NCBI RefSeq assembly: GCF_011683955.1
Contig: NZ_JAAQPI010000001.1
Span: 496,001-560,000, forward strand
Direction of reading: 5' to 3'
From: Pseudomaricurvus alkylphenolicus
GTDB lineage: Bacteria; Pseudomonadota; Gammaproteobacteria; Pseudomonadales; Cellvibrionaceae
DNA length: 64,000 nt
Part shown: positions 26,396-50,415 of the stretch, piece after piece
Position numbering within the stretch: position 1 is the first letter of the stretch
Layout: every line of letters begins with the position of its first letter
Translations under genes and position numbers: made by a program
The notes under the pieces: model-generated
What the model saw: only the letters and a program-made list of their open reading frames with translations
Told to the model about the DNA's origin: nothing
Databases searched by the model: none

Positions 26396-26413
26396 TTGAC
26401 AGCATGCTGTCTA
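26396..26413 (+). promoter_or_regulatory. MarR-type operator 1 (cytochrome c' gene)
   Basis: TGACAGCATGCTGTC palindrome with TTGACA only on the plus-strand side; the right arm ends CTAA. It lies about 40 bases ahead of the cytochrome start at 26455. The intact TTGACA arm could serve as that gene's -35 element. Confidence 0.8.
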
Positions 26414-26454
26414 ATTGATAAGTTGGATTTACACCCGTGAACAAAGGAAAACTC

Positions 26455-27227: not shown

Positions 27228-28340
27228 TTATCCACGATTGGTATCAAACCCCATCTGCGCCCCCAGCAGTGCAGCGGGCTCTTTGAGATTCTCCTGCCAC
27301 AGCAGGGATTCCATCGCGATAGTCAACGGTTGGTCCTGAATCGTCAATTCGTATACGTAGTCATCGTACGAGGCATGGTTGTGAACGGCCCAACCTGGCG
27401 CAGACAACATCAAGTCCCCGGCTTTCCATTCGTATACGTTGCCGGCAACGGAACTGCGTCCTGAGCCATGGAAATAGTAGTTGATTGACGCAGAAGCATG
27501 ACGGTGTGGACGGTCGACAATTTTCGGCGGACGAATCGTCATTGTGGCAAAGAAGTTGGGCGTAGTACCGTTGGTCCTACCGGTAATCGGATTGTAAAGT
27601 AGGTACAGACGGCGTCCTATGTAGTCCTGACCAAGCGCTTCCAGTTTTTTCAGCTCCGCCTCAACCTTCTTCCAAGGCCAGTGCAAGGGGTTGGATTCCA
27701 CCACAGGCGGGTTGATCAGCTTCTCGTAGGGCATCAACATGGCGCCCTCGTCTGTCAATTGGAAGGTGCCGTAGGGGCTGATTCGACGCGGATTGATTGA
27801 GTCGTCATCTTCAACCGCGGCCTTCTCTGCAACGGTGATAGCTTCGCCCTCTTCAGTCATGTGAATTTGCATATGCTGCAGCAGAGGTACATTGGTGTAG
27901 GTCAACATCACCATCAGCTCGTCGGAATCGTTGCCATGGCAGTAGGGCACCCACGAGGGCATATTCCAGACGTCGTAACGTCCAAAGTCGGTGCGCTTGC
28001 CGGCGATGTTGACATGACCACGTCCTTGAATGCAAAAGTTCACTTCCGTTGCATTGTGGCGAAAAGGCACTGTTTGCTCGCCTGGCTTCAGAACATTCAG
28101 TGTGACCTGAATACCGGGAGCGAGGCCCGGCGTGGCCAAGCTGGCAGCCGGGTGCACAATCAGCGAAGAGCGACGGCCGTTCCCTGGTGCCGGCAGCGAC
28201 GCCAGACGGGAAATCTCATCATCAATTTGCTCCTTGGTCACAATCACGGGAGCCCAAGGCTCGTTCGTCTTAACCGGTATTCCGGTTTGGCACACAAAGC
28301 CCGCATGTCCTTCTTCAAAGGATTGTCTGAAATTATGCAT
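27228..28340 (-). CDS. Gentisate 1,2-dioxygenase-like bicupin
   Basis: A 370-residue double-cupin protein of the gentisate/salicylate/1-hydroxy-2-naphthoate dioxygenase family, which opens an aromatic ring carrying ortho or para hydroxyl/carboxyl groups. The N-terminal cupin (RHNATEVNFCIQGRGHV, with His95, Asn97, His135) has one ring-ligand His replaced by Asn. The C-terminal cupin (RPHRHASASINYYFHGSGR, with His279, His281 and His320/322) keeps a full His set, so iron probably sits there, whereas characterised gentisate dioxygenases use the N-terminal site. It is the last gene of a five-gene operon with a fumarylacetoacetase-type hydrolase, fitting gentisate-style ring fission and C-C hydrolysis. 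Confidence 0.83.
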   Translation of the reverse strand: MHNFRQSFEEGHAGFVCQTGIPVKTNEPWAPVIVTKEQIDDEISRLASLPAPGNGRRSSLIVHPAASLATPGLAPGIQVTLNVLKPGEQTVPFRHNATEVNFCIQGRGHVNIAGKRTDFGRYDVWNMPSWVPYCHGNDSDELMVMLTYTNVPLLQHMQIHMTEEGEAITVAEKAAVEDDDSINPRRISPYGTFQLTDEGAMLMPYEKLINPPVVESNPLHWPWKKVEAELKKLEALGQDYIGRRLYLLYNPITGRTNGTTPNFFATMTIRPPKIVDRPHRHASASINYYFHGSGRSSVAGNVYEWKAGDLMLSAPGWAVHNHASYDDYVYELTIQDQPLTIAMESLLWQENLKEPAALLGAQMGFDTNRG

Positions 28341-28363: not shown

Positions 28364-29356
28364 TTACACCGCGCGAAGCCTTGGCTGAACACGCTGGGGA
28401 TGCGGTATGGCACAGCCTTTTCCCTGCGCCAAAGCCTCATTCAGAACCACCAGTCCCAGAGACAGGTCTGAGATGCCCATACCCATCGCCTTGAACAGGC
28501 TGATATCGATATCCTCGGAGCGACCTGCACCACCAGCTACCAGATCACAAAGCGGCTTAACCGCGTTCCAGTCGTGTGTCGGGGCTTCATAGTAAGTCAT
28601 AAATTCACGGGAGAGCTTGGCAACAGCCGCAGGGTTGTCTCCGGCGATCAGGCCGGCGCGATCAAAGACATCCTGTGTGAACTCCTCACGCTCCGGCGTA
28701 ATGGCACCCACTGCATTCAAGTGAGTCCCTTTGGCCAGGTTATCGGCACAAATAAACGGCTGCTGCGCTCGGGTAACCGCCGTCACAATGCTCGCGCCCT
28801 CGGTGGCCGATGACACGGAGTCCGTCGTCATCACTTCAAAGTCAAAACCCTGACCACGCAGATGGGCGGCGAATTGCTCACGACTTTCGGGCCTGGGGCT
28901 ATACACACGGATACGTTTGAGGTCACGTACAGCCGCAACGGCGGCCACCTGAGTAATCGCCTGCTTACCCGTTCCGATCAGAGCCATGTCACTGGCATCC
29001 GGTGCGGCCATCCACTTGGTTGCAACTCCGGAAATGCCCCCGGTGCGCATCTGTCCGAGGGCAAACGCCTCAATGATGGCCCGCAGATTACCCGTAGCTG
29101 AGTCCCAAATAATCAGCAGCGGTGTTGCGCCACCGGCGGTGTGACCCCAGGTTTTGGTGCCAAACACGCCCGCGCCCTCAAAGGTTGCGCCAATGGCGTG
29201 CAAGGTGTGGCCGCCCTCCCACTTCACGTGGGTTTTGACCATGTTCTGTGCCTGGCCAGCAGCCTCTAGCTTTAAGCCACTCTCCAGCGCGTCAATCGCC
29301 TGCCCCAGGTGCATCAGCTCCACCACCTCGGCCTCGGTGATCCAAATAGGCTCCAT
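28364..29356 (-). CDS. Ornithine cyclodeaminase/mu-crystallin family protein
   Basis: A 330-residue NAD(P)-binding protein (PIWITEAEVVELMHLGQAIDALESGLK; MALIGTGKQAITQVAAVAAV). Family members include ornithine cyclodeaminase, ketimine reductases and alanine dehydrogenases. In aromatic clusters these are also found as reductases or dehydrogenases of small 2-oxo or imino acids. It lies between the bicupin dioxygenase (23 bases) and a CMD-like gene (17 bases), under the same operator. The exact reaction is unknown. Confidence 0.85.
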   Translation of the reverse strand: MEPIWITEAEVVELMHLGQAIDALESGLKLEAAGQAQNMVKTHVKWEGGHTLHAIGATFEGAGVFGTKTWGHTAGGATPLLIIWDSATGNLRAIIEAFALGQMRTGGISGVATKWMAAPDASDMALIGTGKQAITQVAAVAAVRDLKRIRVYSPRPESREQFAAHLRGQGFDFEVMTTDSVSSATEGASIVTAVTRAQQPFICADNLAKGTHLNAVGAITPEREEFTQDVFDRAGLIAGDNPAAVAKLSREFMTYYEAPTHDWNAVKPLCDLVAGGAGRSEDIDISLFKAMGMGISDLSLGLVVLNEALAQGKGCAIPHPQRVQPRLRAV

Positions 29357-29373
29357 TACTTACTCCTGAACAA

Positions 29374-29934
29374 TCAACCTGTAAAACCGTCTTCAAAAAT
29401 GGAGGGCACCGGCGGAGCGAGCTCCAGGCTGTTCACCATCAATGCATGGGTCATATAGCGCCCCAGCACCATCATGATGCCCACGGCGTCATAGGCGCCG
29501 ACTACATCGATCAACGCGTCGAGCTGTGCACTAACGCCGTGACCGTGCCCCTTGATAGCGGCAAGCACATAAGCCTGTACGGCTTTCTCGTCATCACCCA
29601 GAAGCGTTGACGACTGGGGATCGCAGGCTTCTACTGCCGTCACCCAGTCCCGCCCAAAGCCCAAACGGATACTGAGTCTTTCGTGTTGGTTGCGCTCATA
29701 GTTGTTACCGAGCGCCATCGCAGCTGTTAATGCAACAACTTCAACGAGGCGCTTGGACTGGCCTCTTTTTGATTCTTCAGTAAATTGCTGGAAGGCCAGC
29801 AGTGCCTGTGGTTTCGCAGCCCCACATTTGAAAAATTCTCCCAGATACCCCAAACGTTCTACCCTGGGCGCCAGGTATTGGGAAAGATCTTCCGGTAGCT
29901 CCTCCATCTCGAAGCGCCTGATCTTCTTAGTCAT
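29374..29934 (-). CDS. Carboxymuconolactone-decarboxylase/AhpD-like protein
   Basis: A 186-residue all-helical protein. I use ATG 29934, four bases after GGAGG; the longer frame begins inside the previous gene. Alpha-helical segments such as KRLVEVVALTAAMALGNNYE and YERNQHERLSIRLGFG resemble the carboxymuconolactone decarboxylase fold (family known for AhpD peroxidase and the protocatechuate-pathway decarboxylase). No CxxC of AhpD is present, so a peroxidase role is unlikely and a decarboxylase or lactone-handling role is more plausible. It is in operon with the hydrolase and dioxygenases. Confidence 0.65.
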   Translation of the reverse strand: MTKKIRRFEMEELPEDLSQYLAPRVERLGYLGEFFKCGAAKPQALLAFQQFTEESKRGQSKRLVEVVALTAAMALGNNYERNQHERLSIRLGFGRDWVTAVEACDPQSSTLLGDDEKAVQAYVLAAIKGHGHGVSAQLDALIDVVGAYDAVGIMMVLGRYMTHALMVNSLELAPPVPSIFEDGFTG

Positions 29935-29977
29935 ACCACCTCCGGTTTTGTTACCACTATCGAACTGAACTGTTGTA

Positions 29978-30841
29978 TCAGCCCTCAGCCACAATGGTAT
30001 TTTCGATGTAACCTATGTTTTCGACTTCGCAGCGAACCACGTCGCCCACTTTCAAAAATTGAGGAGGTTGCATCGCGACACCAACTCCGGAAGGTGTTCC
30101 AGTGGCAATAATATCGCCAGGCTCCAGCGTCATAACGGTAGAGAGATGCTCCACCATCTGGTAGCAATCGTGAATAAGGTCACTGGTATTTGAAGACTGC
30201 CGCAATTCGCCGTTGACATAGCACTTGAGGTCTAGCGTGTGCGGGTCTGAAATCTCATCTTTGGTTACCAACCACGGGCCAATAGGTCCATGGGTATCAA
30301 AGGATTTACCCATGGTCCAGGTTTGCACACGCAGCTGCCAATCTCTGACGCTGACGTCATTACAAACGGTATAAGCCGCAATAACATCGGCGGCATCTTC
30401 AACTTTAACATGTCGGCATCTTTTACCGATCACAAAAGCCAGCTCGACCTCATAATCCAGTTGCTCAGAGACTGTTGGCAACTCAACATCATTGAAGGGA
30501 CCAGTAATACACGAGACCTGCTTGTTAAACCACAACTGGTGCTCCGGTGGTGTAATACCCTTGGCTTTAGCCTCTTCGGCATGCTTCTGATAGTTCATAC
30601 CAATCGCCAAAAACTTACGCGGATTGGTGAGCGGTGCTTCCAGCGTAACGTCTTTCAGGCTCAGGGTAATATCCGCTGCTGCCAAGCGCTCATTGATCGC
30701 TGCCAGTGTACTTTCACTTTGTAGCAGCTCGATCATGCCACCATCAAAGCCCGGTATCAGCGCCTTGAGATCGACAATGCCATCGTCTTTAACGACACCC
30801 ATAGCAGTTATGTTATCGCGAGTATATCTAACTAGTTTCAT
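29978..30841 (-). CDS. Fumarylacetoacetate hydrolase-family protein
   Basis: A 287-residue FAH-fold enzyme. Motifs: FLAIGMNYQKHAEEA, the metal-binding DYEVELAFVIGKR, WTMGKSFDTHGPIGPW and GDIIATGTPSGVG. Members hydrolyse C-C bonds in acylpyruvates or act as decarboxylases/isomerases (fumarylpyruvate hydrolase, HpcE). Next to the gentisate-type dioxygenase this predicts cleavage of a ring-fission product to pyruvate plus a dicarboxylic acid. Second gene of the operon after the extradiol dioxygenase. Confidence 0.92.
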   Translation of the reverse strand: MKLVRYTRDNITAMGVVKDDGIVDLKALIPGFDGGMIELLQSESTLAAINERLAAADITLSLKDVTLEAPLTNPRKFLAIGMNYQKHAEEAKAKGITPPEHQLWFNKQVSCITGPFNDVELPTVSEQLDYEVELAFVIGKRCRHVKVEDAADVIAAYTVCNDVSVRDWQLRVQTWTMGKSFDTHGPIGPWLVTKDEISDPHTLDLKCYVNGELRQSSNTSDLIHDCYQMVEHLSTVMTLEPGDIIATGTPSGVGVAMQPPQFLKVGDVVRCEVENIGYIENTIVAEG

Positions 30842-30918: not shown

Positions 30919-31854
30919 CTAAGCCTCACTGGCTTCATAGTTCTTGGTGAAATCGGCAGGCGGATTGGGCCCCCAGGTATGCAGAGAGTCCTCAAGTGGC
31001 CAGTTTGTGGCCGTCCAGTTATCGCTGTCGGCGATATAATCGATATCGCAGTAGTACTCCAGGTAGCTGTTCCAGGGATCGCGCACATAGTGGAAGAAGT
31101 TGGAGCCGATGGCGTGACGACCAAATCCCCAGCCTTCACTGCCCCACTTTTCCTGCATTCTGGCACCGGCCAGCCCCACTTCGTCGGGTGTCCCCATTTG
31201 GAAACTCGCATGATGAAAGCCAATCCCGTCGGACTGTGCCAGCGCGATCACATGGTGATCGCTGCCACCCTGACAGTGGAGAAACGCAACGGCCGATTGA
31301 CTGCGGTCCGACAGGCGCATACCCAATCCCTGCTCCAGAAACGCAATCGTTTGATCCAGATCGGGAGTGAACATCATCACATGCCCCAAGCGGCGAGGAT
31401 TGAGAGCGGGGATGGTGGACTTCGGCGGCAATGCTCCCTCATTCACCCGGTTGTAATTCCCCGGCGAGTTGATCTTGAACTCCGGTTCCTCTGGCAGCTC
31501 TGCCTCTCTCGCCACCACCACCACATGGAATATCGCCCCGTGAGGGTCGGACAGCCAAACACCGTCATCGGAATAGCCCTCAAGTGGCGACATAATGGTG
31601 CCGCCGCACTGCTGTATGTTCTCACAGATTTCTTTCAGCCCCTCTTCGCTTGTACCCATCGCAATATGGTGTAAGCGTTTTGCATTACCCGGAATGATAT
31701 GCAGACATTCATACTCACGGCCAACGCAGCGAAATGACAAAACAGAATCGCTGCTGGAGATTTCCAAACCAAAATCCGTATAGAAGCTTTGAGCCTCACT
31801 CATACGATCTTGTGGGACTTCCAGGGCCACATGTTTTAGGAAGCTTACCGCCAT
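30919..31854 (-). CDS. Extradiol dioxygenase-type VOC protein
   Basis: A 311-residue, two-module VOC protein and first gene of the operon. Three ATGs in tandem begin the frame; the third (31854, MAVSFLKHVALEV) has AGGAG six bases ahead. The C-terminal module keeps the likely iron triad: His in RRLGHVMMF, His in GFHHASFQM and Glu in YLEYYCDI. These enzymes meta-cleave catechols; related proteins also cleave quinol or act on hydroxyquinol-type rings. Regulated from operator 2, about 140 bases upstream. Which of the ring-cleavage enzymes here acts on the main intermediate is unknown. Confidence 0.85.
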   Translation of the reverse strand: MAVSFLKHVALEVPQDRMSEAQSFYTDFGLEISSSDSVLSFRCVGREYECLHIIPGNAKRLHHIAMGTSEEGLKEICENIQQCGGTIMSPLEGYSDDGVWLSDPHGAIFHVVVVAREAELPEEPEFKINSPGNYNRVNEGALPPKSTIPALNPRRLGHVMMFTPDLDQTIAFLEQGLGMRLSDRSQSAVAFLHCQGGSDHHVIALAQSDGIGFHHASFQMGTPDEVGLAGARMQEKWGSEGWGFGRHAIGSNFFHYVRDPWNSYLEYYCDIDYIADSDNWTATNWPLEDSLHTWGPNPPADFTKNYEASEA

Positions 31855-31992
31855 CATCATCTCCTGCTCTTTTTTCCGAAAGAATCTACGCCTTGCTGTA
31901 GATCTACGTTAGACCTTCATTGAACTCAGCGCTTATTGCACTTTGAAGCCTGGTTGCCGAATGGCTTTGACTGTCAATCTATAATCCCACAA

Positions 31993-32010
31993 ATGACAGC
32001 ATGCTGTCAA
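31993..32010 (-). promoter_or_regulatory. MarR-type operator 2 (dioxygenase operon)
   Basis: ATGACAGCATGCTGTCAA. Perfect 16-bp palindrome core at 31994-32009; the intact TTGACA hexamer reads on the minus strand, facing the 31854-to-27228 operon. Confidence 0.85.
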
Positions 32011-32157: not shown

Positions 32158-32175
32158 TTGACAGCATACTGTCAT
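32158..32175 (+). promoter_or_regulatory. MarR-type operator 3 (molybdenum enzyme operon)
   Basis: TTGACAGCATACTGTCAT. The intact TTGACA reads on the plus strand, facing the molybdenum enzyme genes that start about 85 bases further on. Together with operator 2 it lies in the 400-base divergent region, which otherwise holds no visible gene. Confidence 0.85.
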
Positions 32176-32260
32176 TGCTGTAGCTTTTGCTTCTGACCTT
32201 TTCGCTTCGAAAACCGCATGCGTCACAAAACTCCCAGACAGTAACTCTTAAGGGGAAATG

Positions 32261-35215
32261 ATGAAATTCTCGATACTTCTTTTCGGTATGGTACAAGCGT
32301 TGAAGTACACCGCTTGGCGGCATCCTTCATTCAAAGAGCGTCTTCAGCAGAAGAACCTGACGGTGCAAATAAAACTGCAGGACAACTCCAAAGGCCGATA
32401 CATTGTGATCCTGAACGGGAAAATCACTTCAAATCCAGGGATTCACCCTTCGCCCGACATCACCATGTTCTTCAAAAACCAGCGCATCGCTGAGAAAGTA
32501 CTAACCCCTCCTATTGACAAGGGCTTACAGGTCCACGCGGCGAAGAACTTTCAGATGGGCGTCATTGGGCCCGACGAACTGGTATGCTGGTTTTTGCAAA
32601 CCCTGACTATGATGGAAACTGCAAGCTGGCAGTATGGCGAACCAATGGGTAACGGCGAGACCCGTTACGTGAACTGCACCAATGGTGGTCCAGTTCACGT
32701 CTACGTCAAAGACGACAAGATAGTGCGCATCACGCCCATTGAGTTCACAGAAAAAGACGCGAAATCTTGGTCCATTGAGGCCCGCGGACAAGCATTCAGG
32801 CCACCGCGCCAGACCTCGGCGGCTCCCTACGCCCTGTCCTGGAAGTCTATGATCAATAGCGAGAAGCGCAATCTCTATCCAATGAAGCGAGTGGACTTTG
32901 ATCCAAACGGAGAGAGGAACCCCCAAAACCGTGGCGAGTCCGGATACGAGCGTATTAGTTGGGACGAAGCGCTCGACATTGTTGCTAGCGAATTCAAACG
33001 CGTCAAACGCGAGTTCGGTCCCGGAGCGATCGCCGTTAGCCATGGTTCTCACCACAATTGGGGCAATGTGGGTTACTACCTCAGCGCCCTGATCCGATTT
33101 TTTAACGGCGTGGGACACACAAAAGTCGTTCACAACCCGGACAGCTGGGAGGGTTGGTACTGGGGGGCCCAGCACCACTGGGGTCACAGCATGCGCCTCG
33201 GCATTGGCGAGCCCTTTGGTCAGGTTGAAGATTGCCTGAAAAATGCCGAATTAATGGTGTTCTGGTCCAGTGATCCCGAAGCCACCAACGGCTGCTACGG
33301 CGCCTACGAAGGCACCATTCGGCGGATGTGGGCCAAGGAACTCGGCATCCAGATGGTACACATCGATCCCCATTTAAACCATACCGCCGCCTTCCTTGGC
33401 GGCAAGTGGATAGCACCCAAGCCTGGCACCGACCCCGCGATGGCACAAGCGATATGTCATGTCTGGATATCAGAAGGCCTCTACGATAAAGCCTTTGTCG
33501 AAAAACGTACCACCGGTTTTAACGAATGGGCGGCACATATTCTCGGTGAGGACGACGGCATCCCTAAAACCCCCGAGTGGCAAGAAAGCGAAACCGGCGT
33601 ACCGGCGCGCGATGTACGCGCCCTCGCGCGCGAATGGGGCACCAAGCGAACCTATCTGGCGGCGGGAGGTTATGGCAACGGCTTTGGCGGCGCATGCCGC
33701 AGCGCCACCGGCTCACAATGGGCGCGCATGATGGTCATCATGATGGCGATGCAGGGCATCGGCAAACCGGGCGTTAATTTCGGCAACTTGCAACAGGGCG
33801 CGCCCGTGGACTATACGTTCTGGTTCCCTGGCTACGCTGAAGGTGGTATATCCGGTGATTTGACCAACACCGGTGCAGCTTTGAATACTTACCCTCGCAT
33901 ACCGCACGTAATGTCGATGAATCCCTCCAAGCAAATGATCCCGCGCCTGAAGCTCCCGGATGCGATTCTAAACGGCGAAGCTGAGGGTTATTTTACCGAT
34001 CCAACCTCCATGAATGGCCAATTCTTGCCCTTCAAATACCCTGCTCCCGGACACGCGGACATTCAGATACTCTACAAATACGGCGGCGCTCAGATCGGAA
34101 CCATGCCAGACTCCAACCGCTGGATCAAAATGTACCGCTCTGACAAGCTGCCCTTTGTTGTCAGTCAGTCTATTTGGTTTGAGGGCGAAACTCAGTTTGC
34201 CGACATTATTTTGCCCGCCTGTACTAACTTCGAGCGTTGGGACATTGGCGAATGGTCCTCCGCGGGCGGGTACGGGCATCAATTCTACTCACAGTTGAAT
34301 CACCGGGTAATTACCCTGCAACACCCTTGCGTCGAGCCCTTGGGCGAGTCGAAATCTGACTATCAAATCTTTTTTGAACTGTCTCAACGTCTCAATCTTG
34401 GGGCCTATTTCTCGGAAGGCTCCACTGAGCTCGATTGGGTAAAACGGATCTTTGATGGCTCCGATCTTTCGGACATGATCTCCTGGAAGGAATTTCTGAA
34501 AAAGGGCTACTTTGTTGTACCACCCGATGAGCCTCAAGCACGCGCCCCCACCGCATACCGATGGTTTAACGAGGGTCGAAAGAAGGATGTGCCGGAGCCC
34601 CACCCCCTGCCGGGTGATTACGGTGAAGAATTCCTGGATGGCCTGCAAACGCAATCTGGGAAGATCGAGTTTATACCCAACAGTCTTAAAGAGGTCAATG
34701 ACCCCGAGCGCCCCCCCCTTAACCGCTACACACCGAGCTGGGAAGGAACGCGATCAACGGAATTGAAGAAACGCTTCCCGTTGCAGTTGCTCTCTGCACA
34801 CTCACGTTACAGCTTTCACACACTGGGTGACGGAAAGGAAAGTGCGATTAACGACATCAGGGACCATCGCGTACAAATCAATGGGCACTACTATTGGGTG
34901 ATCCGCATCAACGCCCGCGACGCCGCCGAACGTAACATCAAAACCAACGATATTGTCAGGCTGTTCAACGAGCGCGGATCCGTATTGGGTGCGGCCTTTG
35001 TCACGCAGCGACTGAAGCCTGGCGTCGTTCATTCCTATGAGTCCTCGGCAGAGTATGAAGCCGTCGGCGAGCCTGGTAAATCTTGCGATCGCGGGGGTTG
35101 TGTGAATCTGCTGACAAACAATCGTTCGCAATCGAAACGCGCGAGCTCCATGGCACCAAACGCCTGTCTGATTGAAGTTGAACGATATCACGAAGACTCG
35201 GAGGAAGTCGCATGA
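32261..35215 (+). CDS. Molybdopterin oxidoreductase, pyrogallol-phloroglucinol transhydroxylase/resorcinol hydroxylase-like large subunit
   Basis: A 984-residue Mo-bisMGD enzyme. ATG 32261 is five bases after AGGGG (an ATG three bases earlier is too close). Residues 1 to about 115 look like an SCP2-type lipid/sterol-binding domain; the remaining ~870 match the length of the Pelobacter large subunit. From memory of that family, key residues are conserved: His264 in SHHNWGN, and Asp294-Ser295-Trp296 in NPDSWEGW (Ser is the Mo ligand, Asp/Trp line the site). There is no N-terminal Fe-S cysteine motif and no Tat signal, as in that family, so it should be cytoplasmic. Predicted reaction: hydroxyl transfer or hydroxylation on a polyphenol ring. 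It overlaps the small-subunit gene by four bases. Family is confident, substrate not. Confidence 0.9.
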   Translation: MKFSILLFGMVQALKYTAWRHPSFKERLQQKNLTVQIKLQDNSKGRYIVILNGKITSNPGIHPSPDITMFFKNQRIAEKVLTPPIDKGLQVHAAKNFQMGVIGPDELVCWFLQTLTMMETASWQYGEPMGNGETRYVNCTNGGPVHVYVKDDKIVRITPIEFTEKDAKSWSIEARGQAFRPPRQTSAAPYALSWKSMINSEKRNLYPMKRVDFDPNGERNPQNRGESGYERISWDEALDIVASEFKRVKREFGPGAIAVSHGSHHNWGNVGYYLSALIRFFNGVGHTKVVHNPDSWEGWYWGAQHHWGHSMRLGIGEPFGQVEDCLKNAELMVFWSSDPEATNGCYGAYEGTIRRMWAKELGIQMVHIDPHLNHTAAFLGGKWIAPKPGTDPAMAQAICHVWISEGLYDKAFVEKRTTGFNEWAAHILGEDDGIPKTPEWQESETGVPARDVRALAREWGTKRTYLAAGGYGNGFGGACRSATGSQWARMMVIMMAMQGIGKPGVNFGNLQQGAPVDYTFWFPGYAEGGISGDLTNTGAALNTYPRIPHVMSMNPSKQMIPRLKLPDAILNGEAEGYFTDPTSMNGQFLPFKYPAPGHADIQILYKYGGAQIGTMPDSNRWIKMYRSDKLPFVVSQSIWFEGETQFADIILPACTNFERWDIGEWSSAGGYGHQFYSQLNHRVITLQHPCVEPLGESKSDYQIFFELSQRLNLGAYFSEGSTELDWVKRIFDGSDLSDMISWKEFLKKGYFVVPPDEPQARAPTAYRWFNEGRKKDVPEPHPLPGDYGEEFLDGLQTQSGKIEFIPNSLKEVNDPERPPLNRYTPSWEGTRSTELKKRFPLQLLSAHSRYSFHTLGDGKESAINDIRDHRVQINGHYYWVIRINARDAAERNIKTNDIVRLFNERGSVLGAAFVTQRLKPGVVHSYESSAEYEAVGEPGKSCDRGGCVNLLTNNRSQSKRASSMAPNACLIEVERYHEDSEEVA

Positions 35216-36108
35216 AAAAGTGGAACATGATTATTGATGTTGCTAAGTGCCACAACTGTAACAATTGTTTTATCAGTACGAAAGACGAGTACTGCGGCAA
35301 CGATCATCCGGGATATTCCGCCGCGCAACCCGACAAGGGGCATCGCTGGGTAGATATCGAGCGCATAGAGCGCGGACAGGCACCTGTTGTCGAGGCAAAC
35401 TTCCGCCCGGTAATGTGTAACCATTGCGACAATGCACCTTGCATGGCTGCCAGCGAAAACGGCGCGGTTACCAAGCGCGACGATGGTATCGTACTGATCG
35501 ACCCTGTCAAAGCCAGGGGGCAGAGACACCTGGTTGACGCGTGCCCCTACAACGCCATTTATTGGAATGAAGAGCAGCAGATCCCTCAGGCTTGGATATT
35601 CGATGCACACCTGTTGGATCGGGGCTGGAAGAAAACAAGGCTGGATCAGGTGTGTCCGACCGGCGCGATCAAGACGGTAAAGATCACGGACAATGAGATG
35701 AACACCCTCATCAGCGCCGAAAATCTCGCGACCTTAAGGCCCGAACTCGATACCAAACCACGTGTGCACTACAAAAATAACCACTTGTTCGACACCCTAT
35801 TTATCGCCGGGACTGTGGTCTCGAAGACCGGAGACAACGAGGAATCGGTTGTGGGCGCCAGCGTTGTCGCATTTCTCGACCACACAGTCGTATCAAGTGC
35901 AACAACGGACGCGTTTGGAGAGTTTAAACTCGATCGGCTGCCCATGGGGAACACCACCGTCATCATCGCAATCAGTATTGACAGTTCCGAAGTTCACCGT
36001 TGTGAAGTGTCAGCGCAGGAGTCCATTTACCTGGGCTGTATCTCTATTGAACAACAGCACCAGACCGCTCACAAAGAAAAAGTGGCCACCATCGAGCTGA
36101 GTCAGTGA
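35212..36108 (+). CDS. Fe-S electron-transfer subunit of the transhydroxylase-like enzyme
   Basis: A 298-residue partner coupled by an ATGA overlap. Residues 1-170 form a ferredoxin-type domain: CHNCNNC (13-19) plus Cys28, CNHCDNAPC, DACPYNA and VCPTGA. The C-terminal third (AGTVVSKTGDN onward, with FGEFKLDRLPMGN) is a beta-sandwich of the carboxypeptidase-regulatory type, the same architecture as the Pelobacter small subunit. Oddity: where I expect a CTMC pair before AHLLD, the sequence reads AWIFDAHLLD, so at least two ligands are missing. Only nine ligand-type Cys are left in this domain, enough for two 4Fe-4S clusters instead of three. Confidence 0.9.
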   Translation: MKKWNMIIDVAKCHNCNNCFISTKDEYCGNDHPGYSAAQPDKGHRWVDIERIERGQAPVVEANFRPVMCNHCDNAPCMAASENGAVTKRDDGIVLIDPVKARGQRHLVDACPYNAIYWNEEQQIPQAWIFDAHLLDRGWKKTRLDQVCPTGAIKTVKITDNEMNTLISAENLATLRPELDTKPRVHYKNNHLFDTLFIAGTVVSKTGDNEESVVGASVVAFLDHTVVSSATTDAFGEFKLDRLPMGNTTVIIAISIDSSEVHRCEVSAQESIYLGCISIEQQHQTAHKEKVATIELSQ

Positions 36109-37113: not shown

Positions 37114-38088
37114 TTAGAGGTAACCATAATTCTCATAATGGCGCTTTGCCCCCGGATGCAGCGGTATGGGGGTTTTGGCCATCTTTTTGGGTTCCAGCGG
37201 ATAACTGAGCGGGCTGCGTTCGGGGGCGATATGCCGAAAGCGAGCCTCTATGGTGCCGCGTGTTTCCGTCAGGCACCATGCCAACAGATGAGCAACATCA
37301 TCCGGCATATCGTCTCTCACCAACAAAATGAAGTCGGAGAAGTCCAGGGTCGACAACTCACGGTCGAGATCCTTAAAATAGTTCTTTGGCAACAAGCCTC
37401 GACGACAGTGATAACTCTCTTCCAGATAGGTAAGAACCGACTCCTCCACCGGCAGATAATGCAAGGGCTGATCTTCAAGCATTTCGTGCCACCAAGGGGT
37501 CATGATCGCCTCTTGAACAACTGCATCAACCTCCTTGTTGTGCAACCATGAGAGCACGGAGTCGGGCCTCGCGGCTTGGTAGTAGCGTCCTCCCCAAGAT
37601 TCCACCTCGCGCTTACCGGCACCGGCCGCATCCATCAGCCGATGACTCAAAAAGCCGATATGATTGGAACCATCGTCTGCAGAGATTGCAACTTTCAGAG
37701 CGGGTTTCACTCTGCGCAAATCCTCAAAGGTGCAGATACCCAGCTCTTGCCGTACCGCTATCACCAAGCGGTCGTTCTGCGGCAATACCCCAATTGCTCT
37801 CAAGCCGGGGATCGGCTCTCCCAAGAGCAAACCCGTTCCTTCGAGGGCATTGACCGCCAGGCGTGCCGGTGTACTGATGGCAAGATCCATCGCCCCACTG
37901 CCAACGGCCCTGGCGGCACTGGCTCCGCCATCGCCATTCCAGACAGCTGTACGCGATTGCGAACCGGTTCGGTCCCCCAACTCTTGCATCAACCAACCCA
38001 AAATCATGTGAAAATTGGCCTGCCCCCAGTCACCTTGAAAGTTCAAATGCAGGGAGCGATCAATCTTGGGGCCTTCAACACAAACCAT
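37114..38088 (-). CDS. TAXI-family solute-binding-like protein without signal peptide
   Basis: A 324-residue protein of the TRAP-associated extracytoplasmic immunogenic (TAXI) type: GSGAMDLAISTPARLAVNALEG, then GIGVLPQNDRLVIAVRQELG-like folding and AVVQEAIMTPWWHEMLED. Normal TAXI receptors are exported, yet this one begins MVCVEGPKIDRSLHLNFQGD with no hydrophobic signal segment, and no TRAP permease is in the neighbourhood. It may be a cytoplasmic small-molecule binder or enzyme-like relative. It lies between flavodoxin and TSUP genes in the MarR-regulated operon. Confidence 0.8.
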   Translation of the reverse strand: MVCVEGPKIDRSLHLNFQGDWGQANFHMILGWLMQELGDRTGSQSRTAVWNGDGGASAARAVGSGAMDLAISTPARLAVNALEGTGLLLGEPIPGLRAIGVLPQNDRLVIAVRQELGICTFEDLRRVKPALKVAISADDGSNHIGFLSHRLMDAAGAGKREVESWGGRYYQAARPDSVLSWLHNKEVDAVVQEAIMTPWWHEMLEDQPLHYLPVEESVLTYLEESYHCRRGLLPKNYFKDLDRELSTLDFSDFILLVRDDMPDDVAHLLAWCLTETRGTIEARFRHIAPERSPLSYPLEPKKMAKTPIPLHPGAKRHYENYGYL

Positions 38089-38116: not shown

Positions 38117-38569
38117 TTAGAGCATTTTTGTCCAGGACACGATCCACTCCAGCGCTTGCTCCTCCGGGTAGTTCCCAGACTGTGCGTCGTGCTCACAGGA
38201 TTCACCCACCTTCTTGGCACCTAACGCTTGCATCAGTTCATCAAAGCTACGAGGGCCTCGGCAGAACGTTGCCGAATAGTGACTGCTGCCGAAACCCACA
38301 ACCCCATAGCGCACTGCGGACATGTCGGGGCGTGTCTCACTCAGTTCCGCATACAGTTTTTTGGCGTTGTCCGGAACTTCACCCTTGCCGGTTGTCGATG
38401 TACAAACTAAGATCAGCTTGTGTTGGTCGAATATGGATGCATCAACTTCATCCATGCTTTTCAATACAGGGGTGAAGCTCGCTTCTTCGAGGGCGTCAAA
38501 CAGCTCATCCGCCACCATCGCGGCCGTGCCACTGACGGTACCCACCAATATAGCAATATCGTTGGACAT
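38117..38569 (-). CDS. Flavodoxin-like protein (MioC type)
   Basis: A 150-residue FMN-binding-fold protein (MSNDIAILVGTVSGTAAMVADEL; phosphate loop GTVSGTA; LVCTSTTGKGEVPDN; VGFGSSHYSATFC). The ATG at 38569 lies about six bases after AGGTGG. Free flavodoxins carry one or two electrons between a reductase and an oxygenase or reductase. Here the likely donor is the FAD ferredoxin reductase in the same operon and the acceptor may be the molybdenum enzyme; this pairing is inferred. Confidence 0.88.
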   Translation of the reverse strand: MSNDIAILVGTVSGTAAMVADELFDALEEASFTPVLKSMDEVDASIFDQHKLILVCTSTTGKGEVPDNAKKLYAELSETRPDMSAVRYGVVGFGSSHYSATFCRGPRSFDELMQALGAKKVGESCEHDAQSGNYPEEQALEWIVSWTKML

Positions 38570-38595
38570 AATTTCCACCTACCTTTCGATCCGCA

Positions 38596-39291
38596 TTATC
38601 GCAAGTTCCTTGAAAAGAATTCCGCCGAACGCACATTTGCCAATTTGGCAGCACTTTCAACGTAACCTTGACCACCAACCCGGGCAAACGCATGTCCCGC
38701 ACCGGCATACGTGTGCAGATCAACCAATGGGTTATCGCCCAACGCTTCGTTGATTTTCGCTTGCGCCTCCGGTTGGCAGAGATGGTCTTCAGCGGGGATA
38801 TGCAGCATCAACGGGTTCTTGATATTGGGGGCCTGGTCCAAAACCGTTTCGATACCGACGCCGTAGTAACCCACCAAACAATCGGCATCGGAAGCAGTGG
38901 CCATATGGTATGCCAGGCGCCCTCCCATGCAATAACCCACAACGCCGACTTTTTCGCAGCGCTCTTTCATAAATGCCAGTGCTGCCATGCTGTCTTGCAG
39001 GCCCGTGGCGGGTTGAAACTTGCCAAACAGCTCCATCGCCTTCTCGCGTCCTTCTTCGCTGGCACTGTCAAGCTGTACGCCCGGTTCTATGCGCCAGAAC
39101 AGGTCGGGTACACACACGCGATACCCCATTTTGGCAAAGCCATCGGCCACATCGCGCATGTTCTGGTTAACACCAAAAACCTCCTGCAACACCACCAATC
39201 CGGGGCCGTCTGCGCCTTCCGGCTCGGCGATATAGGCAGAAAATTCACCTGTCCCATCAAATGCACTGATTTTGATCTCTGAGTTAGACAT
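38596..39291 (-). CDS. Dienelactone hydrolase-family protein
   Basis: A 231-residue alpha/beta hydrolase starting after an AGGAGG site. The nucleophile motif VGYCMGGRLAYHMA contains the Cys typical for dienelactone hydrolase, and AGAGHAFARVGGQGYV the catalytic His. It would open a lactone from ring-cleaved aromatics to a maleylacetate-type acid. In the MarR-regulated operon it is the clearest sign that lactones arise in this pathway, together with the CMD-like protein. Confidence 0.93.
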   Translation of the reverse strand: MSNSEIKISAFDGTGEFSAYIAEPEGADGPGLVVLQEVFGVNQNMRDVADGFAKMGYRVCVPDLFWRIEPGVQLDSASEEGREKAMELFGKFQPATGLQDSMAALAFMKERCEKVGVVGYCMGGRLAYHMATASDADCLVGYYGVGIETVLDQAPNIKNPLMLHIPAEDHLCQPEAQAKINEALGDNPLVDLHTYAGAGHAFARVGGQGYVESAAKLANVRSAEFFSRNLR

Positions 39292-40541: not shown

Positions 40542-40584
40542 AATGTCCTCCAAACGACAATCAAGAAATACACATTGCGAGGCT

Positions 40585-42420: not shown

Positions 42421-42438
42421 TTGACAGCATACTGTCAA
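42421..42438. promoter_or_regulatory. MarR-type operator 4 (divergent: TonB receptor and nine-gene operon)
   Basis: TTGACAGCATACTGTCAA, the full symmetric form: TTGACA reads on both strands. The region is divergent, with the cytochrome b operon on one side and the TonB receptor on the other. Possible -10 boxes with 17 to 18 base spacing are TACCAT (42445-42450, plus) and AATGAT on the minus strand. Confidence 0.88.
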
Positions 42439-42553: not shown

Positions 42554-44719
42554 ATGCATCGATTTAAACCTCGCACAGGCACGTCTGTCGCCGCAGGCTA
42601 TCTAGTCTCGATGTCTTTGATCAGCCCAACACTTTGGGCGACAGAGACCGCAACGAGCGACGACGAGTTGGCGTTTCAGATAGAGGAAATTGTGGTCACG
42701 GCCAACCGGCGGTCAGAATCCCTGCAAGAAGCCGCGGTTACCGTTTCTGCATTTTCCAGCGCCTCTCTCGATAAAGCCCAGATTGAACGTATCACGGACT
42801 TGCAATTCAGCTCTCCAGGGCTGAACATCGACAGTTTCAGCGGCGACACGCAAATCACTATGCGTGGCGTTGGTACCAACGCCTTTGGCATTGGTGTGGA
42901 CAATAGCGTTGCTGTCTATGTCGATGGCGTTTACATGTCACGCCAGTCGGTCGCGAATCAAGAGTTTATCGACGTTGAACGCATTGAGGTGCTGAAAGGA
43001 CCCCAGGCAACTTTGTACGGACGTAATGCCACTGGCGGCGCCATCAATATTGTCTCCAAAGCCCCGTCTGAGCAATTGGAAATGGAGATGGATGTACGAG
43101 TGGGCAACTACCAGAGCCGTCGCTATCGAGCGGCGATCAGCGGTGCTCTGGGTTCAAAGACGGTACTGGGTCGCATCAGCGTGATCAAATCGGAAAATGA
43201 TGGCTACAGCGAAAACCTACTTCCGGGTAGTGAAGATTTCGACCGCATTGATAACAACGGCGTCCGTGCGGCGCTGCTAATCACACCAACCGAGGATCTT
43301 GACATCACCCTGCGGGCGGACTACTCCGAGCAGGATGGCTCCGGCGTCGCTTATCAGCGTGTTGAGTCCACAGCACTTGCCTTCTCCTTTCCCTTTGGAC
43401 CCTTCGGTCCCAATGGCACCTATGATTCGAGCCCACGCAGGGCTTATCATAATTTGGAGGACAATCGACCGGCTCGGCAATACGGCTACAACGCCAAAGT
43501 GGAATACAATTTTGACTCGGCGACGGTTACCTCCATTAGTGCCTACAATCGCGGCGAAACCGGACCGACGTTTGAAGACCTGGACGACTCCGAAATTGAC
43601 CTCCTGCACAATAACGGCACCACGTCCACCTCCAGCACCTACTCCCAGGAGATCGTACTCACCTCCGCGCCAGGTGATGGCAGCGACGGAAATTTTGATT
43701 GGTTGCTAGGCGCGTTGTACATGAAGGACGATGCCCGCCAGAACGACAGTTATTTCGTCTACGGGCCGCTGCCGACGGAGTCCAAAACACTGGATAACAC
43801 CGCCTACGCGCTGTTTGGAGAAGCCTCCTATTACCTTTCGGAAAAACTGGTTGCCACACTGGGCCTGCGTTACAGCCACGAAAGCAAGGAAATGCTTGAC
43901 GTCAACTCTGGCATTGATTACCAGGATGATTGGTCCGATGTTTCTCCCAAGTTGGGTCTAAAGTATATCGTCAGCGACGACATCATGATCTATGCCAACC
44001 TCGCCAAGGGCTTCAAAAGCGGCGGTTACAATATACAGGACGCCAGCAACAGCTTTGATCCTGAAGAGCTTTGGAGCCTGGAATCCGGCATCAAATCCAC
44101 GCTGTACGATGGTCGCGTGCGGTTGAATGCCAGCGCTTTCCTCTATGATTATTCGGACATGCAGGTCAACCAGTCTTACTTGCACCCCTTCTTTGGGCCG
44201 ACCCTGTTTATTGACAATGCCGGCGAAGCCGAAGTGTTTGGTGCCGAGTTGGAGGTCCTGGGCCAGATCACCGACCGGTTGTCCCTCGGCCTGAATCTGG
44301 CCTATCTAAATGCCAAATTCTCCGACGGCATTGAGATTTCCGACCCCGATACCACCCTGCCGGTGGATGTAAGTGGCAATGCACTACCCAAATCTCCCGA
44401 CTGGAGCGCTTCCCTCAGTGCTCAGTATGCCATCCCGGTTTTCAACCTGGGCGAACTGTCACTGGGCCTCGAGTACTACTACCAGGGCGAGAACTACCAC
44501 AGTCCGTTTGAGGAGGACCTGATCCGCTCAGACAGCTATGACAACATCAATGCCAACGCCACCTTTACCAGTAACGATGAGCATTGGCATGTATCCGTGT
44601 TTGGTCGCAACATCACCGACGAAGAAATCGTCTCTGGCGTAACGGCCGACTCTTTTGGGCTGATCCACACCTACGCGGCTCCTCGAACCTATGGCATCGA
44701 AGTGGGTTACAAATATTGA
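42554..44719 (+). CDS. TonB-dependent outer-membrane receptor, MarR-regulated
   Basis: A 721-residue receptor with a GAGGAG ribosome site. It has a signal-type N-terminus ending near WATETA, TonB-box-like EEIVVTANRRSESLQ, plug motifs DNSVAVYVDGVYMSR and VLKGPQATLYGRNATGGAIN, and a barrel closing with GIEVGYKY. It should bring the regulon's substrate or a precursor into the periplasm. It lies 115 bases after operator 4 and ends at a strong terminator at 44755. Confidence 0.94.
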   Translation: MHRFKPRTGTSVAAGYLVSMSLISPTLWATETATSDDELAFQIEEIVVTANRRSESLQEAAVTVSAFSSASLDKAQIERITDLQFSSPGLNIDSFSGDTQITMRGVGTNAFGIGVDNSVAVYVDGVYMSRQSVANQEFIDVERIEVLKGPQATLYGRNATGGAINIVSKAPSEQLEMEMDVRVGNYQSRRYRAAISGALGSKTVLGRISVIKSENDGYSENLLPGSEDFDRIDNNGVRAALLITPTEDLDITLRADYSEQDGSGVAYQRVESTALAFSFPFGPFGPNGTYDSSPRRAYHNLEDNRPARQYGYNAKVEYNFDSATVTSISAYNRGETGPTFEDLDDSEIDLLHNNGTTSTSSTYSQEIVLTSAPGDGSDGNFDWLLGALYMKDDARQNDSYFVYGPLPTESKTLDNTAYALFGEASYYLSEKLVATLGLRYSHESKEMLDVNSGIDYQDDWSDVSPKLGLKYIVSDDIMIYANLAKGFKSGGYNIQDASNSFDPEELWSLESGIKSTLYDGRVRLNASAFLYDYSDMQVNQSYLHPFFGPTLFIDNAGEAEVFGAELEVLGQITDRLSLGLNLAYLNAKFSDGIEISDPDTTLPVDVSGNALPKSPDWSASLSAQYAIPVFNLGELSLGLEYYYQGENYHSPFEEDLIRSDSYDNINANATFTSNDEHWHVSVFGRNITDEEIVSGVTADSFGLIHTYAAPRTYGIEVGYKY

Positions 44720-47369: not shown

Positions 47370-47460
47370 CACATACCTCACAACAACATTTACGACGATT
47401 TTAAAGAGAAAGGCCCTGACAATTGAGCCTCTTTCAGCTTATGACAATAACGATCCCATA

Positions 47461-47478
47461 ATGACAGCATACTGTCAA
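47461..47478 (-). promoter_or_regulatory. MarR-type operator 5 (ABM operon)
   Basis: ATGACAGCATACTGTCAA. The intact TTGACA reads on the minus strand, facing the ABM gene; the plus-strand arm is ATGACA. Confidence 0.85.
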
Positions 47479-47611: not shown

Positions 47612-47629
47612 TTGACAGCACACTGTCAA
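47612..47629. promoter_or_regulatory. MarR-type operator 6 (small membrane protein gene)
   Basis: TTGACAGCACACTGTCAA, symmetric form with TTGACA on both strands and one central change (CAC in place of CAT). It lies about 88 bases before the membrane protein gene at 47718. Apart from operators 5 and 6 the 47382-47717 region is empty. Confidence 0.82.
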
Positions 47630-48299: not shown

Positions 48300-48764
48300 T
48301 TAGTTCTCTAGCCGAACACGCAACTCTCTAATGACGTCATGAGCACATTTCAGCTCTTTGGTATCGAGTCCCGCAGCGATGCTGTTGGCCCACTCACACT
48401 GTAACTTTTCGACCTTTTTCAATAAATTTTTTCCTTTGACCGATAACTTCACCAGCTTCGCCCGCTGATGACTGGGATTATCGATCAATACAAGCAATCC
48501 CTCATTGACCAATACATCGACAATACGCTGTACACTCTGTCGCTTCAAGCCCATTTTTCTTGCTATTTGGGAAACGGTCAGCGGCTCCTCCCCTTCCGCC
48601 GCCCCCATCACCTGCCAACGGGCACTGGTTAGCCCCAGTTCACCAACCAGTTCATCGCCTGCGGCGATGATCCGTCCGTTCAATCGGAAAATTTCAAGGA
48701 CTATATCGGTAAATGCAGCCCCACCAGTGGTGTGTTTAATATCAGATTTTTTGTTAGTAGCCAT
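48300..48764 (-). CDS. MarR-family transcriptional regulator (regulon repressor)
   Basis: A 154-residue winged-helix regulator: LTSARWQVMGAAEGEEPLTV, recognition part VSQIARKMGLKRQSVQRIVDVLVNEGLL and wing DNPSHQRAKLVKLSVKG. Helices at both ends form the dimer. MarR proteins bind short palindromes as dimers and release them upon binding phenolic or other ligands. The gene lies within the regulon, and its own upstream palindrome (operator 7) lies only 20 bases from its start, indicating autoregulation. ATG 48764 is used; a GTG at 48773 is possible. The assignment of the palindromes to this protein is by position and typical site size, and is inferred. Confidence 0.9.
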   Translation of the reverse strand: MATNKKSDIKHTTGGAAFTDIVLEIFRLNGRIIAAGDELVGELGLTSARWQVMGAAEGEEPLTVSQIARKMGLKRQSVQRIVDVLVNEGLLVLIDNPSHQRAKLVKLSVKGKNLLKKVEKLQCEWANSIAAGLDTKELKCAHDVIRELRVRLEN

Positions 48765-48782
48765 GATCAGCACAGTAATAAA

Positions 48783-48800
48783 ATATCAGCATGCTGTCAA
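48783..48800 (-). promoter_or_regulatory. MarR-type operator 7 (autoregulatory)
   Basis: Half-degenerate copy: ATCAGCATGCTGTCAA at 48785-48800. The intact TTGACA faces the marR gene on the minus strand; the other arm reads TATCAG. Confidence 0.75.
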
Positions 48801-50262: not shown

Positions 50263-50280
50263 TTGACAGCGTGCTGTCAA
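50263..50280. promoter_or_regulatory. MarR-type operator 8 (cupin operon)
   Basis: TTGACAGCGTGCTGTCAA, perfect palindrome, TTGACA on both strands. It lies 95 bases upstream of the cupin pair. Confidence 0.86.
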
Positions 50281-50397: not shown

Positions 50398-50415
50398 TTG
50401 ACAGCATACTGTCAA
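50398..50415. promoter_or_regulatory. MarR-type operator 9 (TonB receptor 50579)
   Basis: TTGACAGCATACTGTCAA, identical to operator 4. TCTGAT at 50421-50426 sits 17 bases beyond the plus-strand TTGACA and could be the -10 box of the receptor gene. The rest of the 410-base divergent region has no visible gene. Confidence 0.88.

Follow-up and report, generated by a model that had tools for sequence, protein, structure and literature searches.

Two overlapping genes in the window, the whole 64,000-nucleotide stretch of DNA analysed here, are predicted to encode a molybdenum enzyme of the transhydroxylase family. We give about even weight to the reading, drawn from sequence, that this pair is a putative hydroxyl-transferring enzyme of an SCP2-extended branch of respiring Proteobacteria, and that it shares a regulon with an extradiol dioxygenase and a hydrolase of the FAA type. 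The large subunit (32258..35215, + strand; 985 aa) is a Mo-bisMGD protein carrying PF21423, PF00384 and PF01568, and its start is marked by adjacent ATGs at 32258 and 32261 with AAGGGG in front. Its ORF overlaps by 4 nt that of the small subunit (35212..36108, + strand; 298 aa), which has a ferredoxin-like domain and a beta-sandwich tail.

An earlier note, made from the sequence, had assigned the pair to the transhydroxylase family, and the searches bear this out. PF21423 (AhtL-like_1st) matched the large subunit at 94.9 bits against a cut-off of 27, and the closest solved structure was 4v4c_A, the Pelobacter pyrogallol-phloroglucinol transhydroxylase (E 1.5e-298, query residues 135-984). Other DMSO-reductase families, a comparison proposed in that note, lay farther off, the next solved relative being a DMSO reductase at E 8.4e-72; this grouping is carried by sequence comparison, as the 98-row tree holds no other DMSO-reductase family. 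The two-subunit layout and tail were likewise recovered: the small subunit matched 4v4c_B over residues 1-277 (E 1.6e-66), and its AlphaFold model aligned with that chain at TM 0.85/0.92 over 282 columns, tail covered. Equivalents of Pelobacter H144, D174, S175, W176 and Y404, residues with catalytic or Mo-ligand roles, are kept in the window protein, among them the Asp-Ser-Trp and His that the note had placed in the active site, and none of the five varies across the 87 large subunits compared. Likeness to the Pelobacter enzyme thus covers both subunits, the Mo-ligand Ser, the other residues of this set, the domain order and the tail.

Family membership stands, but a plain match does not, because the window pair has an extra SCP2-fold domain and has lost the ligands of one cluster, two features that the note had not mentioned. 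Residues 1-134 of the large subunit (32258..32659, + strand) fall outside the 4v4c_A match, which begins at 135, and were modelled by AlphaFold at a pLDDT of 86.7. Foldseek placed UbiJ-SCP2 6h6o at the top for this segment (E 3.0e-6, TM 0.53/0.60), with other SCP2 chains also matching at <1e-3. The Pfam SCP2 profile (PF02036) gave no match in the window protein and reached 14.1 bits in one relative (L010), below the cut-off of 21.3. As modelled, the N-terminal 134 residues are an extra SCP2-fold domain that is absent from the Pelobacter enzyme.

In the small subunit, T23, W128, D131 and L144 replace four of the twelve cluster cysteines of 4v4c_B, and the other eight are kept. The four are exactly all the positions assigned to one [4Fe-4S] cluster, on a presumed assignment and order that follow NarH logic, with a total of three such clusters in Pelobacter-type small subunits. 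We infer that the window subunit has ligands for two clusters, at the FS1 and FS3 positions. The W/D replacement occurs in 53 of 77 small subunits, marking a Proteobacterial clade (2 changes on the tree versus 20.6 in shuffles), and in 13 of 13 further small subunits belonging to long forms. Among the 53, C23 is kept in 15, C145 in 28 and both in five, whereas all 24 CxxC-keepers have both. Such retention counts against the main reading, as does locus L080, where the four ligands are all still in place. Relatives outside the W/D clade retain all twelve cysteines. A further difference lies at position 153, which is Tyr in the window protein and Arg in the Pelobacter enzyme. SCP2-extended relatives outside the Proteobacterial clade (Moorella, Desulfofustis, Dehalococcoidia, Myxococcia, Actinomycetota and others) share the long form and one tree group with the window protein; they differ from it in keeping 12 Cys, in having Trp at 153 (20 of 20) and in their neighbours, which are often reductive-pathway genes.

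Divergent to the molybdenum genes lies a VOC-type extradiol dioxygenase (30919..31860, - strand; PF00903), which matches homoprotocatechuate 2,3-dioxygenase 1f1x at E 2.9e-12. It keeps H159, H216 and E267 together with H202, H248 and Y257, in HPCD numbering the metal ligands and the acid/base residues. It resembles HpaD/HPCD in these positions and departs from it in a Trp for R243 and in low overall similarity; the HpaD equivalog cut-off was not reached. On the same strand follow an FAA-hydrolase family protein (29978..30841; PF01557 E 2.5e-74, HpaG 1gtt E 2.9e-58), the inferred ring-fission product hydrolase, a weak carboxymuconolactone-decarboxylase-like protein (29374..29994; PF02627 E 0.0034, below cut-off), an ornithine cyclodeaminase/mu-crystallin family protein (28364..29356; PF02423 E 1.1e-48) and a gentisate/aminosalicylate dioxygenase-like cupin (27228..28340; NF049978 E 9.3e-22 and TIGR02272 E 5.1e-18, both below cut-off). 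Elsewhere in the island are a flavodoxin (38117-38578), a dienelactone hydrolase family protein (38596..39291, - strand; PF01738 E 1.1e-46), a Pyr_redox_2/Reductase_C protein, or flavin reductase (39312-40631), a b561 gene (41721-42350, - strand) and a TonB-dependent receptor (42554..44719, + strand; PF00593). The flavodoxin and flavin reductase could supply electrons.

The Mo genes and the ring-cutting dioxygenase appear, from shared palindromes, to be under a common genetic switch. A 16-bp palindrome, spotted by eye and counted afterwards with <=2 mismatches allowed, has 10 forward matches in the 8.88 Mb genome, 9 of them in the window; the reversed-pattern control gave 2. Two operator-like copies, at 31994..32009 (perfect) and 32159..32174, lie between the Mo genes and the divergent dioxygenase/FAH operon. 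Others stand upstream of the cytochrome c' gene at 26437 (26397..26412, 1 mismatch), between the b561 gene and the TonB receptor at 42554 (42422..42437), upstream of 46983-47381 on the - strand (47462..47477) and of 47703 on the + strand (47613..47628, 1 mismatch), at 50264..50279 (1 mismatch), and between 50168 (-) and a TonB receptor at 50579 (+) (50399..50414). The remaining copy (48784..48799, 2 mismatches) is about 10 bp upstream of a MarR-family gene (48300..48773, - strand; MarR_2 50.8 bits, cut-off 27), the candidate island regulator, which matched an HpaR-like profile at E 4.3e-8, below cut-off. Regulator and hydrolase resemble HpaR and HpaG. The setting among dioxygenases that had been described holds, the VOC extradiol enzyme and the sub-threshold cupin both being credible, and is strengthened by the palindromes.

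A second contiguous large-small-dioxygenase-FAH set occurs in the same genome, its dioxygenase 60% and its FAH 54% identical to those of the window; of the genome's 19 PF01557 matches, the two FAH genes rank highest. A same-genus genome carries a large-small-dioxygenase set (dioxygenase 60%). The family had been described as known from anaerobes; confinement of close relatives to anaerobes does not hold, as 60 of the 80 loci retained come from Alpha-, Beta- or Gammaproteobacteria or carry just the label Pseudomonadota, a share biased towards the window's branch because the loci are best matches to the window's own protein. A VOC or FAH gene lay <=5 kb away in 19 of 60 branch loci by local search, many contigs being short, and reductive-pathway-like genes instead in 2 of 60 (L070, L056), so coupling to O2 is not universal in the branch. 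Window-branch neighbours included 9 Glyoxalase/VOC and 7 FAA_hydrolase domains in a Pfam tally of 150; the CxxC-branch tally of 109 held 5 3HCDH, 4 BKACE and 4 CoA transferase. We know of no activity for any member of the SCP2-extended Proteobacterial branch.

The host has three COX1-family (PF00115) genes, perhaps with a nitric oxide reductase among them, as well as one full NarG, and on this evidence looks facultative rather than simply aerobic. The island had been called apparently aerobic, a description that this corrects. NarG would also allow anoxic use of the pair.

We tentatively propose, as a possibility well short of even chances, that this branch of respiring Proteobacteria runs the anaerobes' reaction backwards, turning phloroglucinol-type meta-polyphenols into vicinal pyrogallol-type rings by means of a redox-insulated Mo enzyme fed by its SCP2 domain, with O2-dependent extradiol cleavage pulling the equilibrium and with middle-cluster loss and Trp-to-Tyr at 153 as its marks. 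On the main reading, to which we give about even weight, a two-cluster small subunit would no longer form a continuous electron wire, so the Mo site would be redox-insulated and would carry out redox-neutral hydroxyl transfer between phenols, not net oxidation or reduction. The SCP2 domain would probably bind or present a hydrophobic substrate, and the hydroxyl would be put where it gives the ring the vicinal diol cut by the divergent dioxygenase, after which the FAA hydrolase would split the ring-fission product. The MarR repressor (48300-48773) would probably free all operons once substrate appears.

A net oxidative hydroxylase like RhLS, adding water-derived oxygen to the ring and passing two electrons to an acceptor, is unlikely. 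PMC10100899 names Azoarcus anaerobius resorcinol hydroxylase RhLS and the transhydroxylase together as Ser-ligated hydroxylating enzymes, the host respires, flavodoxin and b561 genes are in the island, and the FS1 position is kept, leaving a place near which an acceptor could dock. However, the middle-cluster ligands are all lost here and two of them are free to vary across the branch, so that the usual electron exit would be broken, and no acceptor gene was recognised by eye beside the second copy. Ligand loss also counts against a reductive dehydroxylase that takes a hydroxyl off an over-hydroxylated ring, which we hold to be quite improbable. Mo-dependent catechol dehydroxylases are known (PMC7028382), and the island could provide electrons from its flavodoxin and reductase, yet relatives of these two were not found beside the second copy, and in the relatives' loci searched the flavodoxin had no match and the reductase a single one (L037).

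Rather improbable, too, is an ordinary pyrogallol-to-phloroglucinol transhydroxylase used at low oxygen and standing beside dioxygenases by chance. NarG fits it, and so does the presence of reductive-pathway-like genes at 9 of the 20 loci of CxxC-branch relatives. Beside relatives of that branch recur the cyclase, BKACE and 3HCDH families of the Clostridium scatologenes anaerobic phloroglucinol pathway (PMC10470551). None of these three families of reductive phloroglucinol genes turned up in the scanned island genes, which hold extradiol cleavage genes instead; moreover, the palindromes are common to the Mo genes and the dioxygenase operon, and the second module also has a dioxygenase. Brown-algal phloroglucinol polymers had been floated as substrate; nothing in the data points there.

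If the proposed coupling of hydroxyl transfer to ring cleavage is right, aerobic bacteria would prepare polyphenols for ring cleavage by an O2-independent hydroxyl shuffle that replaces the monooxygenase in a hybrid pathway, spending neither NAD(P)H nor O2 on hydroxylation and re-using an enzyme regarded as belonging to fermenters. Cluster loss would amount to a natural experiment on the role of Fe-S clusters in a transhydroxylase, given its redox-neutral reaction. The branch is common: it makes up 60 of the 80 retained best matches and has members on rhizobial, burkholderial and Salipiger plasmids. Four annotated plasmids of named strains carry VOC and FAH genes <=12 kb from the pair, which in all four regions is annotated just 'molybdopterin-dependent oxidoreductase', so that a considerable part of aromatic metabolism may lack a name.

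The molybdenum enzyme of the island is encoded by a large-subunit gene (32258-35215, forward strand, 985 aa) and a small-subunit gene (35212-36108, forward strand, 298 aa). By far the nearest solved structure to the large subunit is chain A of the Pelobacter transhydroxylase (4v4c_A; E 1.5e-298 over query residues 135-984), with DMSO reductase as runner-up (E 8.4e-72), and the nearest to the small subunit is chain B (4v4c_B; E 1.6e-66). PF21423, the family's first domain, scores 94.9 bits in the large subunit against a cut-off of 27. The equivalents of H144, D174, S175, W176 and Y404, to which we ascribe catalytic roles in the Pelobacter enzyme, are invariant in 87 of 87 aligned large subunits. 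Together, these matches and the retained active-site residues bear out the earlier note, which had placed the pair in the transhydroxylase family. The window pair carries a clean, testable structural mark in an unusual pathway setting.

This mark lies in the small subunit. Twelve Cys residues lie in the ferredoxin-like part of the Pelobacter small subunit and, following the NarH pattern, presumably bind three [4Fe-4S] clusters (C13, C16, C19 and C149; C23, C126, C129 and C145; C68, C71, C76 and C109). In the window protein, C23, C126, C129 and C145 are exactly the positions that have changed, to T, W, D and L respectively; the remaining eight are Cys. In an alignment of 77 small subunits that includes the window protein and a second copy from its own genome, W and D replace C126 and C129 in 53, while the other 24 keep both and, in fact, all twelve Cys. 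Both C23 and C145 are present in 24 of 24 of the latter (the CxxC branch); among the 53 W/D proteins, C23 occurs in 15, C145 in 28 and both in only 5. Once W and D are set, the remaining two ligands drift. Seven of the other eight Cys are present in 77 of 77 proteins and C16 in 71, and the modelled fold is still that of 4v4c_B (TM 0.85/0.92). These substitutions make the predicted loss of the second cluster well supported, although the members that retain C23 and C145 (L025, L026, L032, L034 and L054) could still carry an altered cluster. Ser replaces C16, a first-cluster ligand, at loci L011, L013, L014, L015, L017 and L018, and likewise at L113 and L115.

The substitution follows descent. 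A scan of species genomes gave at least 590 confirmed relatives, and the best 80 loci by match to the window protein, which are no census of the family, split into 60 in a single large-subunit clade and 20 outside it. The 53 W/D small subunits all belong to the clade, which comprises 38 loci from Alpha-, 12 from Beta- and 8 from Gammaproteobacteria, plus 2 labelled only as Pseudomonadota. The 20 outside loci are from Myxococcia, Desulfobacteria, Desulfobulbia, Deltaproteobacteria, Syntrophobacteria, Clostridia, Dehalococcoidia, Anaerolineae, Actinomycetota and Acidobacteriota, or are unlabelled; many of these groups, though not all, are known for anaerobes. The W/D label requires 2 changes on the large-subunit tree versus 20.6 in shuffles, and likewise 2 on a small-subunit tree made without those columns (quick-mode LG+G4 trees, with support by SH-aLRT only). 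W and D also occur in 13 of 13 further small subunits adjoining long-form large subunits, drawn from the same-genus relative, 4 genomes in the family of the L049 genome, 6 plasmids and 2 marine alphaproteobacterial genomes. Small subunits beside two shorter relatives (L138 and L139) have all twelve Cys. The sole clade member with all four ligands is L080, whose sister L054 keeps two; its ligands are either an ancestral state retained or a state regained. In the large subunit, a single column, Pelobacter position 153, which we take to be near the substrate, has different commonest residues in the two branches, each above 85% in its own branch. The CxxC-branch long forms carry Trp there (20 of 20), those of the W/D branch Tyr (62 of 63, all but L060), and the four short forms either Arg or Lys.

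The two branches also keep different neighbours. Pfam tallies, in which only families with more than two members are shown, returned 3HCDH (5), BKACE (4) and CoA transferase (4) among 109 proteins at 19 of the 20 CxxC-branch loci, with Glyoxalase and FAA hydrolase absent from the 25 commonest families there. For the W/D branch, the nearest 150 of 372 proteins at 56 loci, leaving out L012, L063, L079 and ORFs over 750 aa, gave Glyoxalase (9) and FAA hydrolase (7). Anaerobic phloroglucinol breakdown in Clostridium scatologenes uses a 'cyclase', a BKACE-family lyase and a 3-hydroxyacyl-CoA-dehydrogenase-like enzyme (PMC10470551). Genes of these three types, identified up to about 8 kb away from similarity clusters that took their names from the tally and from inspection by eye, occur at 9 of 20 CxxC-branch loci versus 2 of 60 W/D-branch loci. 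Conversely, an extradiol dioxygenase-type (VOC) or FAA-hydrolase family (FAH) gene lies within 5 kb at 19 of 60 W/D-branch loci versus 0 of 20 CxxC-branch loci; the queries all came from the W/D branch and so favour finding such genes there, a fault that the Pfam tallies do not share. Fisher tests on these branch contrasts, which ignore relatedness, gave 0.0022 and 2.9e-5.

In the W/D branch, 29 VOC and FAH genes lie within 5 kb of the pair (483.5 kb of sequence) and 7 further out (344.1 kb); in the CxxC branch there are none in either zone (156.0 kb and 120.5 kb, respectively). A 2.5-kb limit weakens the W/D contrast (17 in 272.5 kb versus 19 in 555.2 kb). The window's own genome has 64 PF00903 and 19 PF01557 matches in 8.88 Mb, a rate obtained by a detection method that differs from that of the locus counts. 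In these comparisons, near copies (L063/L064 and L073/L079) are counted separately, and ORF picking at GC-rich loci takes in some false antisense ORFs. Eight plasmid records contained close matches, and six regions were read, two of them unannotated. VOC and FAH genes lie near the pair together with OmpW genes on plasmids of Burkholderia stagnalis and Paraburkholderia sp. PGU19, with an outer-membrane transport protein gene in Ensifer canadensis, and with dienelactone hydrolase, cupin and TAXI transporter genes in Salipiger abyssi. The link to O2 within the W/D branch is not uniform. By eye, four marine alphaproteobacterial loci (L063, L064, L071 and L072) have a long form with no adjacent small subunit, directly behind HmgA-like and fumarylacetoacetase-like genes; a P450-like gene follows the large subunit at L064, and the genomes of L064, L071 and L072 have a small subunit outside those loci.

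In the island itself, a VOC-fold extradiol dioxygenase gene (30919-31860) lies divergently upstream of the molybdenum genes. Its product matches homoprotocatechuate 2,3-dioxygenase (E 2.9e-12) and keeps H155, H200, H214, H248, Y257 and E267, with R243 replaced by Trp, in what we take to be the numbering of that enzyme. Behind it are an FAA hydrolase matching HpaG (E 2.9e-58), a weak CMD-like protein, an ornithine-cyclodeaminase-family protein and a gentisate-like cupin; 3' of the molybdenum genes are TauE, a TAXI-type binding protein, a flavodoxin, a dienelactone hydrolase, a flavin reductase and TonB receptors. By eye, the TAXI-type protein (37114-38088) has no recognised adjacent TRAP permease and no obvious signal peptide. 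Outside the island, the window holds a further VOC-type gene (10632-11594; PF00903 at G000:C11:506758-507105 of the genome). The host is probably facultative: it encodes one full NarG and three PF00115 proteins, a nitric oxide reductase perhaps among the latter.

The core of this arrangement recurs in the same genome (8.88 Mb), which has two PF21423 genes. The second copy, on contig C5, is 57-58% identical to that of the window and belongs to a contiguous module in which the two subunit genes, large then small, are followed by those for an extradiol dioxygenase and an FAA hydrolase (60% and 54% identical, respectively, to their window counterparts); the FAA hydrolases of the two modules rank first and second among the genome's 19 PF01557 matches. 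Of the 57 relatives searched, one same-genus genome alone has a close, near full-length homologue, a distribution that suggests mobility or loss; there, too, large subunit, small subunit and dioxygenase follow one another.

A 16-bp palindrome, TGACAGCATRCTGTCA, occurs twice in the 397 bp that separate the dioxygenase gene from the large-subunit gene. It was spotted by eye and counted afterwards: allowing 2 mismatches at most, the genome contains 10 forward matches, 9 of them in the window at 26397-50414, and a reversed-pattern control gave 2 forward ones. When 3 are allowed, the window yields 19 strand matches versus 0.80 expected, a number reached in 0 of 100 shuffles. The nine window sites lie before genes, two TonB receptor genes among them, or between divergent genes. 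Because palindrome copies are common to both fronts, the molybdenum genes and the dioxygenase operon are most likely under one regulator. The natural candidate is the product of a MarR-family gene (48300-48773; MarR_2, 50.8 bits) with a palindrome about 10 bp upstream. The palindrome core is missing from the stretch of the second module and from the relatives' loci searched, and the regulon argument therefore holds for the own-genome island alone. Two adjacent cupin genes (48889-49440 and 49437-50168), 3-hydroxyanthranilate dioxygenase-like and far under the family cut-off, stand behind two palindrome copies.

Net hydroxylation or dehydroxylation usually requires an electron wire. Transhydroxylation is redox-neutral, and a broken wire therefore does not stop it. 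With the active site preserved and the middle cluster apparently lost, we favour hydroxyl transfer as the reaction that the pair would catalyse. A flavodoxin and a flavin reductase in the island could instead serve as electron partners of the molybdenum pair, but they have no counterpart near the second copy and do not recur across the relatives' loci, leaving this only a rival to hydroxyl transfer. Neighbours in the CxxC branch would often reduce a meta-polyphenol; those in the window's branch would often cleave a vicinal diol with O2. On the simplest reading, hydroxyl transfer would now arrange the hydroxyl pattern for ring cleavage, perhaps running in reverse relative to anaerobes with O2 pulling it. 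Titles and abstract openings in the open-access literature yielded no transhydroxylase-family member in an O2-dependent pathway or with a lost cluster, which is weak evidence of absence.

Large-subunit residues 1-134 have no counterpart in 4v4c_A, and Pfam recognises no domain there in the window protein; the relative L010 matches SCP2 at E 0.06, below the cut-off. An AlphaFold model of this region from 42 aligned sequences (pLDDT 86.7) matches UbiJ-SCP2 (E 3.0e-6), alkylsulfatase SCP2-like domains and several SCP2 proteins. This long form is widespread: it is present at 80 of the 80 best loci (of at least 590 relatives), 3 of which have an extra short form, and the 83 long forms among the 87 large subunits form a single group in the tree (SH-aLRT 100). 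A hydrophobic substrate is hinted at by the SCP2 fold and by what lies near relatives: acyl-CoA synthetases, and OmpW-like or outer-membrane transport proteins. The brown-algal, marine phlorotannin substrate raised as speculation in the earlier note found no pointer in the gene content, and titles and abstract openings in the open-access literature gave no aerobic phlorotannin breakdown with a transhydroxylase-family enzyme. Short stand-alone ORFs resembling the N-terminal domain occur in same-order genomes (G038:C187:6274-6648, G051:C34:15549-15905 and G055:C4:69663-70001), one of them with an internal TAG.

In the family of the L049 genome, 14 of 297 genomes contain PF21423. Six regions from it comprise W/D-branch long forms (L140-L143), a short form (L138) and a distant form (L139), and no large subunit of resorcinol hydroxylase (RhL) was identifiable by name among them. 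The distant form is 36% identical and stands beside an ORF that by eye is UbiD-like; its transhydroxylase-like pair (L139, 5864-9246; 36-38% identical) is possibly a separate subfamily. By eye, L140 and L143 lie near genes like hydrophobic-compound transport sets, with an FAH-like ORF immediately upstream at L143.
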